From Heliophilum fasciatum (GTDB taxonomy: Bacteria; Bacillota; Desulfitobacteriia; Heliobacteriales; Heliobacteriaceae): a DNA stretch of 64,000 nucleotides. The notes below the pieces were generated by a model, which saw nothing but the letters and a program-made list of their open reading frames with translations, had not been told where the DNA came from and did not search any database. The DNA lies in the NCBI RefSeq assembly GCF_004341395.1, contig NZ_SLXT01000009.1, positions 1-64,000 on the forward strand, in the 5' to 3' direction. A program made the position numbers and the translations under genes. Positions within the stretch are counted from its first letter, which is position 1. Every line of letters starts with the position of its first letter. This document shows, piece after piece, positions 34,182 to 53,675 of the stretch.

Positions 34182-35700
34182 CGGCGTCTTGTCACAAGAA
34201 GAGATTGATGCCTTGTTACGAGGCGCAGAGATTCCGGAAGGTGATACGGAAAATGAATTAGACTATAGTCATCTCGATTTCACTGATATGGAAAAAGACG
34301 TTATCGGTGAGATCTCGAACATTTCTATGGGTACGGCAGCCACGACGTTGTCTACGCTGTTAGGGCGCAAAGTTGATATTACAACGCCACAAGTTTCTGT
34401 AACATCTAGGTCAGATATTGAAAAAGATCATCCTGCTTACTTTGTTGTCGTTGATGTAAAATACACTGCCGGTCTGGAAGGTAACAATGTCCTAATCATT
34501 CATCAAAAAGATGTAGCCGTCATCGTTGATTTAATGATGGGTGGTGATGGAACGGCGCCACCGGTTGATCTGACAGAATTACATTTTAGTGCGATTTCGG
34601 AAGCGATGAACCAGATGATGGGTTCAGCTTCCACCTCTATGGCGACGATGCTCAATAAAAAAATTGATATCTCGCCGCCTGATCTTAACTATATAAACTT
34701 AGCTACCGAGAAATTAGAATATCCCATTGGCGATCCGATCGTGAAAGTTTCTTTTCGCATGGTTATCGAAGGGTTAGTTGACAGTGAATTAATGCAGATC
34801 TATCCCATTCCCTTTGCGAAGATGTTGGTACGTGGTTTAATTGGTGACCCCTCTGAACCTGGTATGGGGGCAGAAGAAATACCTGTGTCAACTGCGATGC
34901 CGGAAGTACCGGGGATGATGCCGGAAGCACCAGGAATGATGCCGGGAGCCCCGGGGATGATGCCGGGAGCACCGGGGATGATGCCAGGGGCACCAGGGAT
35001 GATGCCGGGAGCCCCGGGGATGATGCCGGGAGCACCAGGGATGATGCCAGGAGCACCGGGGATGATGCCAGGAGCACCGGGGATGATGCCAGGAGCACCG
35101 GGGATGATGCCGGGAGCACCAGGGATGATGCCGGGAGCACCAGGGATGATGCCAGGAGCACCAGGGATGATGCCAGGAGCACCGGGGATGATGCCGGGAG
35201 CACCGGGGATGATGCCGGGAGCACCAGGGATGATGCCAGGAGCACCAGGGATGATGCCAGGAGCACCAGGGATGATGCCGGGGGCACCGTCTGGTATGGG
35301 TAGTTATCCCGGTTGGGGATATCCACCACCGGCTTATGGGAACTATCCACCATCACCCAGTCCGATGCCAGTTCCGCCTCCAGTGCCAGTACAACCTGTG
35401 CAATTTACACCACTTCAAGAACAAGCTACGGGTAAGGATCTCACCAATCTTGGATTGATCATGGATGTGCCCTTACAAGTCACCGTGGAATTAGGGAAAG
35501 CCAAAAAGACGATTCGAGATATTCTGGAACTTGGACCTGGTTCCGTCATCGAACTTGATAAACTGGCCGGTGAACCCGTTGACATCTTGGTCAATGGGAA
35601 ACTGGTAGCTAAAGGGGAAGTGGTGGTTATTGACGAAAACTTTGGCGTCCGAATCACCGATATTGTTCAACCGATGGAGCGTATCTTAAATTTGCAATAA
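34171..35700 (+). CDS. fliY: Motor switch phosphatase FliY with a heptad tandem repeat linker
   Basis: C-ring protein of 509 residues, longer than the roughly 380 of B. subtilis FliY. In order: an N-terminal CheY-P binding motif ([11 protein letters not shown], 6-16), a CheC-like phosphatase domain with both active-site pairs intact (Glu47/Asn50 in GEISNISMG and Glu144/Asn147 in SEAMNQMMG), a repeat linker of 18 heptads GMMPGAP (248-373), a Pro/Tyr-rich segment with PPP motifs, and the C-terminal FliN domain (about 415-505, [19 protein letters not shown]). The repeat accounts for most of the extra length. ATG 34171 has AAGGAG upstream. Confidence 0.95.
34912..35289 (+). repeat. 18 x 21-bp in-frame tandem repeat in fliY
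   Basis: Exactly 18 units of 21 bp with no indels, each encoding Gly-Met-Met-Pro-Gly-Ala-Pro; only unit 1 differs in protein (Glu for Gly). The DNA differences among units are otherwise third-position synonymous changes (CCG/CCA, GGA/GGG, GCA/GCC). All six frames across it tend to stay open, which produces false ORFs. Confidence 0.97.
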
Positions 35701-41880: not shown

Positions 41881-43095
41881 GTGCGAGTCAAACGATTTGT
41901 CGGGGCCACGATGCAAGAAGCTATGGCGCGATTGAAAAGCGAAATGGGAGCGGATGCCGTGATTTTGCATACACGCAAAGTCCAAAACCGTCGTTTTTTT
42001 GGTTTGATCTCGCGAGAAATGATTGAGATCACCGGAGCGGTAGAAGAACCGACGTTCGCAGCGAAAGAAACGACGCTTTCAAAGCTCAATCCTTCAACGT
42101 TACAACTAAAACCAACGCAAACCCGATTAAGCGCTTCAACCATAGCACCGCCGTCACAACCGGCCGTGGGAAGTAGCTTTACCTTAATTCCGAGTTCGCC
42201 TGCGCCCAATCCAATGAAAGAAAGTGATCCACTAAAAGAAACCATGGCAGCAGAAATGGTTGAAATCAAAGGAATGGTTGGAGAGATCTTAGAGCGTTTG
42301 AATCAACCAGCCGAAGATCTGCCTTCCGACATTCACCGAATTCATCAGCTACTGATTAAAAATGATGTTGAACTCCGGTTAGCTGATCAAATCTGTTCTA
42401 AAATCATGCCACTTGATACGCGACAAAATAACCAGCAAGCAATCGCGTTAATTCAAGCGATACTTGGTCAGCCGAAACCGATTGTTTTACCTCCACCAGG
42501 TAATGGTTCTCACGTGGTGATGATGATTGGACCGACAGGTGTAGGCAAAACAACGACCATTGCCAAATTAGCAGCAACCTTCTCCATTGTACAAAAACGT
42601 AAAGTCGGCTTGATTACGGCCGATACCTATCGTATCGCAGCGGTAGAACAATTACGAACGTTTGGGGAAATCATTGGTGTACCTGTAGAAGTCGTGTTCT
42701 CACCACCGACGCTGCGTACAGCCATTGAGCGTAACTGGGATAAAGACTTGATCTTGATCGATACGGCCGGGCGCAGCCATAAGCATGAACGACAAATGGA
42801 AGAATTACGCGCCTTTGTGGAGGCAGCGCAACCATCAAGCCTCTGTTTAGTATTATCGATGACCACCAAAGGCAAGGATTTAGACCAAATTCTCAATTCC
42901 TATAATCACTTAAATTTTGAACGGATTATCTTTACGAAAATGGATGAAACAACACAATACGGCACAATGTTGCAAGTAATTCAGCAAACTGGAAACCCGC
43001 TTTCTTACGTTACTACGGGGCAAAATGTACCTGATGATATTGAAATCGCCGATCCGGCTAAACTGGCACGCTTGATTTTTGGAGAAATGCAATGA
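41881..43095 (+). CDS. flhF: Flagellar SRP-type GTPase FlhF
   Basis: Protein of 404 residues setting flagellar number or place. An N-terminal basic region (MRVKRFVGATMQEAMARLK) precedes a variable linker and the NG domain, with [10 protein letters not shown] at 217-226, TADTYRIAAVEQL, and DTAGRSH. GTG start is 1 bp after the flhA stop; the end overlaps flhG as ATGA. Confidence 0.95.
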   Translation: MRVKRFVGATMQEAMARLKSEMGADAVILHTRKVQNRRFFGLISREMIEITGAVEEPTFAAKETTLSKLNPSTLQLKPTQTRLSASTIAPPSQPAVGSSFTLIPSSPAPNPMKESDPLKETMAAEMVEIKGMVGEILERLNQPAEDLPSDIHRIHQLLIKNDVELRLADQICSKIMPLDTRQNNQQAIALIQAILGQPKPIVLPPPGNGSHVVMMIGPTGVGKTTTIAKLAATFSIVQKRKVGLITADTYRIAAVEQLRTFGEIIGVPVEVVFSPPTLRTAIERNWDKDLILIDTAGRSHKHERQMEELRAFVEAAQPSSLCLVLSMTTKGKDLDQILNSYNHLNFERIIFTKMDETTQYGTMLQVIQQTGNPLSYVTTGQNVPDDIEIADPAKLARLIFGEMQ

Positions 43096-48707: not shown

Positions 48708-48770
48708 CCAGAGTCGAAAGAGCAAGGGTTATAATTTTAGGAGCAGGATCGTAGGTAGGTGGCGAATGAT

Positions 48771-49565
48771 ATGACTTCGACAAAGTCGGCTGTGCTGGCG
48801 GCGCCACTTTGGACTCGATACAAGGTTCATCATGATCGTGTGGCGAGAGATGAGTTGATCGTTCTGTACGCACCATTAGTGAAGTATGTAGCTGGTCGAT
48901 TGGCCATTGGGTTGCCGTCCAACGTGGACCGCGATGACTTATACAGTTATGGTGTATTTGGATTGATCGATGCGATTGAGAAATTTGATCCAACGCGTGG
49001 ACTTAAATTTGAAACGTACGCTGTATCGCGCGTACGTGGCTCCATGTTTGATGGGTTGCGAGCGATGGATTGGGTTCCTGCTTCGGTTCGCCAACGAGCG
49101 AAAGAATTAGAGAAGCTTTTACATTCCTTATCGGGCAAATTAGGGCGTGTAGCAACAGATCAAGAAGTAGCCGAGGCGATGGGAATTACGGAAGCCGAAT
49201 ACCAAAAGCTACTTCATGATCTGCAAGCTACCTCACTACTTTCACTTGATGAACCTTGGACAACTGATGGCGGAAAGAGCGAGAGTGTTCGCTTATTAGA
49301 CACACTTATCGATGTTCGGGGGCATGATCCGGTTACCGCTGCCGAAGTCTCTGAGTTACGAAATACATTAATTCGTTCCATTGACCGCTTACCCGAAAAG
49401 GAACGTCTGGTGATTACCCTTTATTATTATGAAGATTTGACACTTAAAGAAATCGGCAGTTTAATGAATCTTTCCGAATCTCGTATTTCTCAACTTCACA
49501 CCAAAGCGATTTTGCGGTTGCGTGGTCAGTTATCACGCCATAAGAAGAAGTTGATTGAAAATTAA
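48771..49565 (+). CDS. sigD: Flagellar sigma factor SigD/FliA
   Basis: Sigma-28 factor of 264 residues for late flagellar and chemotaxis genes. Region 2 holds LIVLYAPLVKYVAGRLA and DRDDLYSYGVFGLIDAIEKF; region 3 is ELEKLLHSLSGKLGR; region 4 holds LPEKERLVITLYYYEDLTLK and the helix-turn-helix ending LSESRISQLHTKAI. ATG 48771 has TAGGTGG upstream; GTG 48759 would add four residues. Confidence 0.95.
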   Translation: MTSTKSAVLAAPLWTRYKVHHDRVARDELIVLYAPLVKYVAGRLAIGLPSNVDRDDLYSYGVFGLIDAIEKFDPTRGLKFETYAVSRVRGSMFDGLRAMDWVPASVRQRAKELEKLLHSLSGKLGRVATDQEVAEAMGITEAEYQKLLHDLQATSLLSLDEPWTTDGGKSESVRLLDTLIDVRGHDPVTAAEVSELRNTLIRSIDRLPEKERLVITLYYYEDLTLKEIGSLMNLSESRISQLHTKAILRLRGQLSRHKKKLIEN

Positions 49566-49627: not shown

Positions 49628-51142
49628 ATGGTTACATCGAATGGGCTATTCAAAAGTGAAGGGAACCTGTCGAACGATTCGCGGGAGACTGTTCAAGAAG
49701 TCCATAATAATGAACTACCTGAACAAACAGAACTGCCTGAAGATGTTCCGGCCTATCAAGAAGGCAAAGTGACTGTGCAGATTGACCGTGATGGGATGCA
49801 TGCATATGTTATTGTTTTGGGTGCAGGAAGCGCGAATGATGCAACCAAAAACGTTGATCCCTCGATTGTTCAAGAGGCATTGCAAAAAAATGGTGTGATC
49901 TTTGGTATTATCGATGGCGCTATTGAAAAAGCGGTGCAACCGTTGAATTTTGGCCAAAAAATTACAGTAGCTAAAGGAATTCCGCCTCAACCAGGAACAG
50001 ATGCACAATTAAATTATTGTTTTGATCCTGACCAAAGAATAAAACTCACCGAACTTGAAGATGGTCGTGTTGATTATTATAATTTGAGTTTGATCAAAAA
50101 CGTTCAAGTTGGCGACATCTTGATGATTCGTGTTCCACCTACCAGCGGTACACCGGGAACGACGGTCATGGGGCATGAAGTTAAACCAAAGGCTGGGAAA
50201 GATCGCCGTATTCCTGCCGGTAAAAACACGATATTAAGCGAAGATGGAAAACTTTTGACAGCTACGGTAGCAGGTCATGTTCATATTGCCGGTGGGCGTG
50301 TACATATTGATCCGGTTTTTGAATGGCCCGGTGATGTTGACTTTTCTTCGGGGAACTTATCCTTTCTTGGCTCGATTATCGTTCGTGGGAATATTTCTTA
50401 TGGCTTTAAGGTCGAATGTGCAGGTAATCTGGAGGTCTTTGGATCCATTGATGGAGGATCTGTTGACATTGGTGGTAACTTAACGGTTCGACAAGGTATT
50501 CAAGGGCAACAGCGCTCACTGCTTAAAGTCAAAGGGAATATTGCGGCCCACTTTATTGAAAACTGTACAGTTCAAGCTGATGGTGATATTGTTGTTGGTG
50601 AAGGGATTATTCACTCACAAGTTGATGCCGGTGGCAAGATTCATGTTGGCGGTAAAAAAAGTGTAATTGTTGGCGGGCGAGTTCGTGCTGTTGAAGAAAT
50701 CGAGGCAAAAATTATTGGTTCACCTCATGCAACAGTGACTGAAATTGAAGTGGGAATTCGCCCGGAACGTCGAGAGTATTTTCAAGAATTATTGAATCGG
50801 GAAAAGCTTAATGCTTCAAAAGTTGAACAAACCGAGAAAACTATCGCTTTACTTAAAGACTGGGAGAAAAAACAAGGCCGTCTGTCACCGGACAAGCGGC
50901 AAATCTTATTGCGGTTAACGCGTTCACAGTTTCAATTGTTAAAAGAAGCTGACGATTTAATGAAGGAAAAAGCGCAGATTGAAAAAGAGTTTGAGCAAGT
51001 GGCGCACGGTAAAGTGTGCGCTCATACCATTATTTATCCTGGTGTAATGATCAGAATTGGAACTGCTTCGATGCGGGTCCGTGACAATATTCGGGCTTCT
51101 ACAGTAGTCATTCGTGATGGGCTATTAGAAGTCATTCCATGA
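49628..51142 (+). CDS. FapA (DUF342) family protein
   Basis: Protein of 504 residues. An acidic N-terminal tail (1-45) precedes the DUF342 core, with PPTSGTPGTTVMG and GRDRRIPAGKN-like motif (KAGKDRRIPAGKNTILSEDG), a right-handed beta-helix of Gly/Val-rich turns (about 220-370), a coiled coil (about 380-450) and a short C-terminal beta part. FapA proteins are polymer-forming, and in Vibrio one is linked to polar flagellar assembly; here the setting right after sigD supports a motility link. GAGGGGGAA precedes the ATG. Confidence 0.85.
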   Translation: MVTSNGLFKSEGNLSNDSRETVQEVHNNELPEQTELPEDVPAYQEGKVTVQIDRDGMHAYVIVLGAGSANDATKNVDPSIVQEALQKNGVIFGIIDGAIEKAVQPLNFGQKITVAKGIPPQPGTDAQLNYCFDPDQRIKLTELEDGRVDYYNLSLIKNVQVGDILMIRVPPTSGTPGTTVMGHEVKPKAGKDRRIPAGKNTILSEDGKLLTATVAGHVHIAGGRVHIDPVFEWPGDVDFSSGNLSFLGSIIVRGNISYGFKVECAGNLEVFGSIDGGSVDIGGNLTVRQGIQGQQRSLLKVKGNIAAHFIENCTVQADGDIVVGEGIIHSQVDAGGKIHVGGKKSVIVGGRVRAVEEIEAKIIGSPHATVTEIEVGIRPERREYFQELLNREKLNASKVEQTEKTIALLKDWEKKQGRLSPDKRQILLRLTRSQFQLLKEADDLMKEKAQIEKEFEQVAHGKVCAHTIIYPGVMIRIGTASMRVRDNIRASTVVIRDGLLEVIP

Positions 51143-51190: not shown

Positions 51191-51508
51191 TTGACCATTC
51201 GATCGGTTGATATGCAGGTTATTGTACCGAAAGTCACAGAAATTAGCCGAACTCAACAAATTCAGCAACAACAAGGTCAAAATGAACAGCAGTTTCAATC
51301 CCAGCTAAATCAACAAACAACACAATGGAAACAACAAAGTGTACCTACTACAGGACAAGCTGATAAAGGAGCAATCAAAGATCGCGAATCAAAACAACAA
51401 CAAAGAAAACAACACGAGCAAAAAAGTGACGAAGATAAAGAGCAAAACAAAGATGTACTTGACAACGAAGGACTATTACGGGGACATCATTTAGATTTAA
51501 GAATATAA
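51191..51508 (+). CDS. Gln-rich small protein of the flagellar cluster
   Basis: Not recognised with certainty. A 105-residue, highly hydrophilic protein, rich in Gln, Lys, Asp and Glu from residue 18 onward. Its N-terminus RSVDMQVIVPKVTEISRTQQ appears ordered and is the likely conserved part; similar short proteins occur near sigD in other Clostridia, from memory. No signal peptide or membrane helix. TTG 51191 is supported by AGGGGGGA. Probably co-transcribed with fapA and the following gene. Confidence 0.65.
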   Translation: MTIRSVDMQVIVPKVTEISRTQQIQQQQGQNEQQFQSQLNQQTTQWKQQSVPTTGQADKGAIKDRESKQQQRKQHEQKSDEDKEQNKDVLDNEGLLRGHHLDLRI

Positions 51509-51533: not shown

Positions 51534-52922
51534 ATGCTCACAGTGCTAACAGTAGCAGGTATCATCATTATGATTATTGGTATTGGACTGATTCTAAAAG
51601 AGCAATCGGAAAAACACCTAGATGGGGAAGAGTTAGGTAATTGGCAACAACGTCAAAAAGAAGCACAACGGCTTCAAAACGATCTGGATTTATTGATGCG
51701 TACCTTAAGTAGACGCAGTGAAGAGGCAATCGAAAAATTGCGTGTACAAATTGAACAGGGTCGGCAATTAACATCACAATTAGAAGTTGAACGAGCCTAT
51801 ATCGCGGAAATGAGCCAAGATATTTCGGCGAAACGCAAAGAACTTTTATTGCATGCCCAAGCCATAGCACCCACACCCACTGTGGTTGCTGAAGCTTTTG
51901 TAGCATCGCCAAGTGAAGCCTCTGTAATGGTCACAGAGCCCTCAACGGCAGAAGCGCCTGTAATGGTCGAGGAGTACGAAGCTCCAGCGGCAGAAGCGCC
52001 TACAATGGTCGAGGAGTACGAAGCTCCAGCGGCAGAAGCACCTGCAATGGTCGAGGAGTACGAAGCCCCGGCGGTAGAAGCGCCTGCAATCGTCGAGGAG
52101 TACGAAGCCCCGGCGGTAGAAGCGCCTGCAATCGTCGAGGAATATGAAGCCCCAGCGGCAGAAGCGCCTGCAATGGTCGAGGAGTACGAAGCCCCAGCGG
52201 CAGAAGCGCCTGCAATGGTCGAGGAGTACGAAGCCCCAGCGGCAGAAGCGCCTGCAATCGTCGAGGAGAACGAAGCCCCAGCGGCAGAAGCGCCTGCAAT
52301 GGTCGAGGAGAACGAAGCCCCAGCGGCAGAAGCGCCTGCAATGGTCGAGGAGTATGAAGCTCCAGCGGCAGAAGCACCTGCAATCGTCGAGGAGTACGAA
52401 GCTCCAGCGGCAGAAGCGCCTGCAATGGTCGAGGAGTACGAAGCCCCGGCGGCAGAAGTGCCTGCAATGGTCGAGGAGTATGAAGCCCCGGCGGCAGAAG
52501 TGCCTGCAATGGTCGAGGAGAACGAAGCCCCAGCGGCAGAAGCGCCTGCAATCGTCGAGGAATATGATGCTCCGGGCGTTGAGACACCTGTTTTAAAAGA
52601 TAAGGTTGTTTCGATTAATGATTATGCAACATTATTAGAGGCACCCTCAGAAGTTGAAGCACCGGAGAGTGGATTGATCTCCTATCCATTGCGTCAATAT
52701 GCACAGATTCAAGAGCTTACAAAACCTCAAAAGCCCGAGCGCAATTTAGCCCAACTTTTCCCGCCTGAAAAAGGAGATCCCCGCCTATGGCCACGGGAAG
52801 AACGTTATGAGAAAGTAGGCCCGTTATATCTTCTGGGGGTAAGTGATGAAGAAATTGCGGAGTTTCTGAATTTAGGAAAAGATGAAGTTAAGCTCATCCG
52901 CCAACTCCGGAGGCAGGAGTAG
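51534..52922 (+). CDS. SwrB-like membrane protein with 15 acidic tandem repeats
   Basis: Protein of 462 residues: an N-terminal membrane helix (about 3-21), a coiled coil (35-108), 15 repeats of 14 residues of the type MVEEYEAPAAEAPA (144-353), and a C-terminal segment KVGPLYLLGVSDEEIAEFLN then LGKDEVKLIRQL that looks like a small helix-turn-helix. Helix, coiled coil and this C-terminus match the layout of SwrB, the flagellar assembly activator encoded next to sigD in B. subtilis, which lacks the repeats and is far shorter (about 165 residues). Family link by layout and place; sequence identity is not checked. AAGGAGGCG lies before the ATG. Confidence 0.7.
   Translation: MLTVLTVAGIIIMIIGIGLILKEQSEKHLDGEELGNWQQRQKEAQRLQNDLDLLMRTLSRRSEEAIEKLRVQIEQGRQLTSQLEVERAYIAEMSQDISAKRKELLLHAQAIAPTPTVVAEAFVASPSEASVMVTEPSTAEAPVMVEEYEAPAAEAPTMVEEYEAPAAEAPAMVEEYEAPAVEAPAIVEEYEAPAVEAPAIVEEYEAPAAEAPAMVEEYEAPAAEAPAMVEEYEAPAAEAPAIVEENEAPAAEAPAMVEENEAPAAEAPAMVEEYEAPAAEAPAIVEEYEAPAAEAPAMVEEYEAPAAEVPAMVEEYEAPAAEVPAMVEENEAPAAEAPAIVEEYDAPGVETPVLKDKVVSINDYATLLEAPSEVEAPESGLISYPLRQYAQIQELTKPQKPERNLAQLFPPEKGDPRLWPREERYEKVGPLYLLGVSDEEIAEFLNLGKDEVKLIRQLRRQE
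51963..52592 (+). repeat. 15 x 42-bp in-frame tandem repeat
   Basis: Fifteen units of exactly 42 bp; the last is degenerate. Each encodes a 14-residue Glu/Ala/Pro unit, with exchanges ATG/ATC (Met/Ile), TAC/AAC (Tyr/Asn) and GCA/GTA (Ala/Val) among units. The exchanges appear in blocks of shared variants, suggesting duplication or gene conversion. Spurious open frames exist on both strands. Confidence 0.97.
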
Positions 52923-52931
52923 GAGGGGGAT

Positions 52932-53675
52932 ATGGTGAACGAAGATCGTACAAACGTTGACCATGACAAAAGCATGGTACCGAGCGTAGGGATGAAAGTC
53001 TTTCTAAGCGGTGCTATGTTATTTATGATTAGTGTATCACTTTATGTTTGGGGTCCAACTGATGTGGCTTCTACGGCTGTATCGTCAGCACCACCTGAGC
53101 AAGAAAGCGTAGCGCCACCGCAACCTGAAGCAGAAGATTCAAAGCCGCAGGGGATAGCAGCCGGAACTGCCGCTACTCCAACGATGACAGGCACAAACAC
53201 CCCTATTCAGCCTGCGGCGACCGCAAAAGGAACTGCTTCAGAGCCATCGACACCGAAAAAAACTGTTGACACTACATCCCCAGCGAAAAGAACTTCTGAA
53301 GAAACAGCAGCAAAGAAATCTACGACCACGGCCGCCGTAAAATCACGAGTTACGACTGAGCCGGCTGCTTCGGCGCCAGTGAAACCACAGCTAAAACAAG
53401 AACCGCTTGCCGATAAAGTTCCAGTGAAACCGCGAACAGAAGAAGAACCACTTACCGACAAAGCTCCAGCAAAACCGCGAACAGAGCAAGAACCGCTTGC
53501 CGACAAAGTTCCAGTAAAACCGTGGACCGATGAGGAACCAATTGCTGAGAGAGCGTCGACAAGACCGGAACCGGCACAAGAACCGCCGGCATGGCTTAAT
53601 TATAATCAGCCATCGCAAGCCCCTAGAGAAGATGATTGCCCAACGTGGTTGAAATGTGTGAAATCTCATAAATAA
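52932..53675 (+). CDS. Single-pass membrane protein, Pro/Ala/Thr/Lys-rich
   Basis: Unrecognised protein of 247 residues. A short polar N-terminus leads into a membrane helix (about 22-40, KVFLSGAMLFMISVSLYVWG), followed by a low-complexity Pro/Ala/Thr/Lys/Glu segment with four 15-residue repeats of type KPRTEEEPLTDKAPA (151-210), and a short C-terminal end containing PAWLNYNQPS and CPTWLKC. Probably anchored with the long part outside or in the cell-wall zone; orientation is not certain. GGAGGGGG precedes ATG 52932, 9 bp after the SwrB-like gene. It is the last gene before the terminator. Confidence 0.7.
   Translation: MVNEDRTNVDHDKSMVPSVGMKVFLSGAMLFMISVSLYVWGPTDVASTAVSSAPPEQESVAPPQPEAEDSKPQGIAAGTAATPTMTGTNTPIQPAATAKGTASEPSTPKKTVDTTSPAKRTSEETAAKKSTTTAAVKSRVTTEPAASAPVKPQLKQEPLADKVPVKPRTEEEPLTDKAPAKPRTEQEPLADKVPVKPWTDEEPIAERASTRPEPAQEPPAWLNYNQPSQAPREDDCPTWLKCVKSHK
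53382..53561 (+). repeat. 4 x 45-bp in-frame tandem repeat
   Basis: Four units of 45 bp encode KPQLKQEPLADKVPV, KPRTEEEPLTDKAPA, KPRTEQEPLADKVPV and KPWTDEEPIAERAST. The units are more diverged than the two larger repeats in the cluster, which suggests an older duplication. Confidence 0.9.

Follow-up and report, generated by a model that had tools for sequence, protein, structure and literature searches.

In the window, by which we mean the whole 64-kb stretch of Heliophilum fasciatum DNA that was analysed, the gene of a 462-aa protein, hereafter the host gene, lies directly behind fliA, a FapA-like gene and a small ORF, and contains the strongest tandem array that TRF finds in this stretch (Table 1). 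The flhF gene of the same cluster is adjoined by a gene for an FlhG-like ATPase of the MinD family. The small ORF directly upstream is Gln-rich and is found in all heliobacteria at this place. The ORF between the host gene and rpsB (52932-53675) harbours a short repeat of its own (45 bp x 2.8); its counterparts in seven heliobacterial relatives have at their end a stretch similar to the beginning of the YceG family (three were tested by Pfam), and this stretch was not detected in the H. fasciatum copy.

Table 1. Features of the host gene and its surroundings, in coordinates of the window.
Feature	Position	Strand	Basis and remarks
flhF, candidate partner by analogy with FipA	41881..43095	+	TIGR03499 above its cut-off
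fliA/sigD sigma factor, upstream neighbour	48759..49565	+	
FapA-like (DUF342) gene, upstream neighbour	49628..51142	+	
Small ORF directly upstream of the host gene	51191..51508	+	present in every relative and at many DUF6115 loci
Host gene, 462 aa, putative membrane-anchored flagellar protein of the DUF6115/FipA type, "SwrB-like" by position	51534..52922	+	ORF, syntenic orthologues, DUF6115 profile match
Residues 2-111, predicted membrane helix at the N-terminus, then a long helix (coiled coil)	51537..51866	+	AlphaFold pLDDT about 70-92; sequence; kept in relatives
Degenerate 36-bp unit (MVTEPSTAEAPV) preceding unit 1	51927..51962	+	unit-by-unit listing
Tandem array, 15 x 42 bp, consensus MVEEYEAPAAEAPA	51963..52592	+	TRF, register, composition
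Unit 15, diverged edge unit (IVEEYDAPGVETPV)	52551..52592	+	15/42 sites off consensus
Residues 401-461, conserved C-terminal helical (HTH-like) domain, putative DUF6115/DUF2802 core	52734..52916	+	alignment, AlphaFold, weak HTH fold matches
G435, E451, L454: motif G-x15-E-x2-L, corresponding to FipA G110, E126, L129	52836..52895	+	DUF2802 profile alignment; 9 heliobacterial sequences

Read in register, the array consists of exactly 15 units of 42 bp in frame with the surrounding ORF, which bears out what had been noticed from the letters alone. TRF places it at 51937-52561 with a period of 42, 14.9 copies, 93% matches and a score of 1038. The GC content is 0.62 within the array and 0.44 in the remainder of the gene, and the 210 encoded residues carry a net charge of -60. 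The 42-bp unit was not found elsewhere in the rest of the H. fasciatum genome. Two further ORFs that overlap the array, one antisense (52000-52587) and one in an alternative frame (52144-52596), were rejected as genes and regarded as stop-free by-products of the repeat.

Units 1 to 14 are nearly identical, with a mean of 3.1 of the 42 sites differing per pair (92.6% identity). They comprise ten variable sites, five of which change an amino acid: the Met/Ile (codon 1), Tyr/Asn (codon 5) and Ala/Val exchanges (codons 10 and 12) had been named correctly in the sequence-only reading, and one Ala/Thr exchange has to be added. The Glu and Pro codons are untouched by any amino-acid exchange in these units (P about 0.05), which hints at selection on composition. 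That the exchanges are arranged in short blocks is weakly supported; variants are common to units 3-4, 8-9 and 12-13, unit 6 equals unit 7, and compared with a shuffled order the similarity of neighbours is raised, but only somewhat (P = 0.028). Nine of the 45 pairs of variable sites fail the four-gamete test, and such conflicts require either conversion or unequal recombination, or else recurrent mutation. Together with the comparison of the units they support the earlier suggestion of recurrent duplication or conversion. Diverged edges around a homogenised interior are the usual picture for an array that is kept up by unequal exchange.

In the full-length AlphaFold model of the host protein a helix extends from residue 2 to residue 111, residues 112-400 are almost without structure and residues 401-461 are helical. 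The C-terminal domain reaches a pLDDT of about 85 in this model and of about 82-84 over its core when it is modelled alone. A fold search with this domain matched HTH folds with E-values that are not significant, and a PDB sequence search gave weak matches alone, to unrelated or designed proteins. The N-terminus before the membrane helix is uncharged and the segment behind it is charged, a pattern that predicts a cytoplasmic C-terminus, as was mapped for FipA; by this analogy the C-terminal side of the host protein is most likely cytoplasmic. Taking low model confidence as an indirect sign of disorder, we infer that the linker of approximately 290 residues, most of which is the array, is disordered and lies in the cytoplasm. 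The stalk rich in Glu, Ala and Pro that had been proposed from the sequence is thus acidic and probably extended, but most likely it would not span the envelope. The Pfam scan of the host protein revealed no cell-wall anchor family and neither a LysM-like nor a FimV/TPR domain.

A syntenic orthologue of the host gene is present in all eight other Heliobacteriaceae genomes, which come from genera other than Heliophilum. These orthologues encode proteins of 202-248 aa, none of them with an array, in the gene order cheW, cheD, small ORF, fliA, FapA, small ORF, host gene, rpsB, tsf and pyrH. Since the array is missing from all eight relatives it is specific to the lineage of H. fasciatum. The linkers of the relatives measure about 65-110 residues, and their net charge of -4 to +11 is close to neutral; G435, E451 and L454 are invariant across the nine heliobacterial proteins. 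When genome contigs were searched with a profile of the family alignment, the closest named relatives were Heliobacterium chlorum, H. mobile and Heliorestis; a contig search with the C-terminus of the host protein alone gave no matches. The genome also carries a BchY-like gene, with a score below the cut-off of the model. The assembly used here is a draft of 3,142,229 bp in 73 contigs, and the published draft of Heliophilum fasciatum, which is placed in a genus of its own, has 3.14 Mbp in 75 contigs (PMC9147875). Eight relatives still show the array-free state, which makes the array an unusually clean example of a linker expanded in one lineage.

The recurring Pfam match of the host protein is DUF6115 (PF19610). 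It is a weak one, with 14.3 bits in the scan and 17.2 bits in the genome search, and the highest score among the heliobacterial relatives in the latter search is 26 bits; all lie below the cut-off of 27 bits. As a reference set we used 30 loci with DUF6115 above the cut-off, taken from other genomes of the phylum. An hhalign comparison of the nine heliobacterial C-termini with the 30 C-termini of DUF6115 proteins gives a probability of 98.5% and an E-value of 1.8e-15 (single target). FapA and/or FliA are encoded nearby in 30 of the 30 loci, with rpsB also within range in 13, and the host gene and its eight relatives occupy the same place, beside fliA/FapA and before rpsB. According to the model and the alignment the host protein also has the architecture of these proteins, namely an N-terminal membrane helix, a coiled coil and a C-terminal helical domain. 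Synteny and profile comparison thus argue that it belongs with DUF6115, proteins of which occur in 56 of the 150 genomes that were sampled from the phylum. DUF6115-like matches in class-level relatives were dropped as orthologues; they lie mostly at other loci, and some of those listed are response regulators with an HTH tail. In the DUF6115 gene of another genome (L238) the same linker contains a short Glu/Pro-rich repeat (9 bp x 9.8).

DUF6115 in turn appears to be homologous to DUF2802 (PF10975), the domain of FipA, so that both would form one superfamily. Six DUF6115 members were scanned, and DUF2802 came second among the families matched by each of them (E 3.7e-6 to 0.005). The host protein itself scores 14.4 bits against DUF2802 and its best relative 19.1 bits, and neither reaches the cut-off of 33.5. 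The match is ungapped and aligns host residues 422-460 with profile positions 30-68. As DUF2802 spans residues 68-135 of FipA, the FipA residues G110, E126 and L129 correspond to profile positions 43, 59 and 62, and it is on these positions that G435, E451 and L454 fall. Of the 30 DUF6115 sequences, 29 keep the spacing G-x15-E-x2-L when conservative exchanges are allowed at the last two positions, Q for E in one and I for L in another (one of the 29, L250, was counted by eye). FipA is a membrane protein whose gene lies just downstream of the flhA-flhF-flhG-fliA-che operon; G110, E126 and L129 are invariant in it, and G110 and L129 are needed for the binding of FlhF (PMC11620751). If the homology holds, it leads to a prediction for a family of unknown function, namely that DUF6115 proteins bind FlhF via the face formed by G-x15-E-x2-L, and by analogy FlhF would be the best candidate for a partner of the C-terminal head of the host protein. 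Our literature search found no paper in which the term DUF6115 occurs together with FipA, DUF2802 or SwrB. The connection between DUF6115 and FipA is the more useful by-product of this analysis and its most useful lead.

The array in the host gene is not the only one in this genome. In 800 kb of sampled sequence we found five further strong arrays, to which the fliY array within the window has to be added; the periods are all divisible by 3, and the six other arrays have a GC content of 0.66-0.79 and all lie in open frames. The fliY array (34896-35288) is built of 18.7 copies of a 21-bp unit (MPGAPGM) and separates the CheC-like part from the FliN domain at the C-terminus. One of the five further arrays resides in a polyphosphate kinase; the other four (loci L149, L150, L152 and L223) belong to a PRC-barrel protein, a GerQ-type spore coat protein and two proteins for which Pfam gave no match. 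The polyphosphate kinase (L154, 9419-12025) has an acidic APEESD array of 14 units of 24 bp in its C-terminal tail, and its frame of 871 aa compares with 738-767 aa in six relatives, which stop before the array and are about 105-130 aa shorter. In one of the relatives (G001) the polyphosphate kinase is split over two overlapping open frames (L265, L266). A 400-kb sample of another heliobacterium with a complete genome of 3.08 Mb (G004) contained four strong arrays, and in the sample of a third, likewise complete genome (G001) no strong arrays were found. The presence of at least six more GC-rich arrays, all of them in frame and spread over proteins of unrelated kinds, speaks for a genome-wide tendency to expansion rather than for a tuning specific to the flagellum, and we favour the view that GC-rich in-frame repeats expand wherever the protein tolerates it. 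The idea from the sequence-only reading that unit number tunes the length of the stalk finds no support so far, with the array missing from every relative in the family and comparable arrays present in proteins of other kinds.

We therefore consider it probable that a disordered linker in a flagellar protein of the DUF6115/FipA type has recently expanded in this lineage alone, by slippage or unequal recombination, and that the array is the result. The N-terminal helix would anchor the protein in the membrane and continue into a cytoplasmic coiled coil, and the small HTH-like head at the C-terminus probably binds a flagellar assembly factor, with FlhF as the candidate. In the linker between them, a site that may tolerate any in-frame length, the 42-bp unit would have been multiplied through replication slippage or unequal recombination, accompanied by conversion between units. 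The outcome would be a strongly acidic, flexible tether of roughly 290 residues for the head, compared with about 65-110 residues in the relatives; by standard polymer scaling the estimated end-to-end distance rises from about 7-9 nm to about 16 nm. The extra length would mainly be tolerated rather than finely selected.

A different reading is that selection acted on the array because it serves, as in HubP, as an acidic scaffold or spacer; its many negative repeats would hold the head at a useful distance or bind basic partners, and its unit number would be tuned to flagellation or bundling. We regard this as possible, though rather unlikely. HubP is anchored in the membrane at its N-terminus and binds clients through a C-terminal domain; its cytoplasmic region is unstructured and carries acidic, imperfect repeats that vary in number and length between close species (PMC12918733). 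The same plan in the host protein would suit such a role, as would the constant Glu and Pro codons and the fact that the array is the top-scoring one in 864 kb of the H. fasciatum genome. Moreover, Heliophilum swims in bundles of cells, for which the authors of the genome paper found no obvious genetic explanation (PMC9147875); the link from the array to this bundle motility is circumstantial. However, the short and near-neutral linkers of the relatives indicate that acidity is no conserved need, and arrays of a similar kind in the polyphosphate kinase, the PRC-barrel protein and the GerQ-type coat protein likewise argue against a scaffold. HubP and the host protein have a plan in common; the comparison is one between proteins that may work alike and not one of membership. 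An adaptive, length-tuned HubP-like scaffold built on a FipA/DUF6115 placement protein seems improbable to us. If it were true, a tandem-repeat tether would set flagellar number, position or bundling in a bacterium of the Gram-positive lineage.

The length of the array, its near-identical units and the signs of exchange between them could also point to a hypermutable switch, the unit number of which often changes within the population and adjusts the activity reversibly. This we think distinctly improbable, as the many point differences between units speak against an extremely fast turnover, changes by a multiple of three cannot turn the gene off, and the 26 intragenic arrays of Legionella, with units of 9-261 bp, stayed unchanged over three months of passage (PMC2639597). 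The 15 assembled units might also misstate how many units there really are, or in which order they stand, since the published Heliophilum genome was sequenced with Illumina (PMC9147875) and the draft used here has 73 contigs. Such an artefact is very improbable, however, for the longest exact repeat within the array measures 71 bp, so that every ambiguity is bridged by ordinary reads, and the array lies far inside a contig of 111 kb. With exact repeats shorter than a typical Illumina read the assembled unit count is credible, though not proven. Hardly credible at all is a stalk that is extracellular or spans the cell wall. Stalks rich in Ala, Pro and Glu are common among surface proteins, but Pfam detects no cell-wall anchor family in the host protein. 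The charges around the membrane helix, too, predict a C-terminus on the cytoplasmic side, as in FipA (PMC11620751).

Among known systems, the DUF6115 proteins of Bacillota are close to the host protein. They share the locus (fliA/FapA, small ORF, this gene, rpsB, tsf) and the sequence of membrane helix, coiled coil, variable linker and C-terminal G-x15-E-x2-L domain, but at 116-339 aa in 37 measured homologues they are all shorter than the 462 aa of the host protein, and the array is unmatched among them. FipA of gammaproteobacteria resembles the host protein in its membrane helix, its coiled region and a C-terminal domain in which the three conserved residues line up, and FlhF (above its cut-off) and an FlhG-like protein are encoded in the cluster of the host protein as well; with 163 aa, however, FipA of Vibrio is too short for such an array. 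The label "SwrB-like" is a positional one, the gene of SwrB in Bacillus subtilis being located between sigD and rpsB. SwrB is likewise a single-pass membrane protein of flagellar assembly and has been stated to be conserved only in Bacillus (PMC4526659). The polar landmark HubP/FimV shares the membrane anchor, the acidic, repeat-rich unstructured stretch and the C-terminal client domain, but its LysM and TPR/FimV domains are missing from the host protein according to Pfam. The intragenic in-frame repeats of bacteria such as Legionella, where fimV is among the genes concerned, likewise have periods divisible by 3 and expand within open frames; variation from strain to strain has been shown there (PMC2639597), whereas the H. 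fasciatum array is known from one genome. What the array shows is no new system but repeat expansion of a known kind, in a form that is conspicuous and specific to this lineage.
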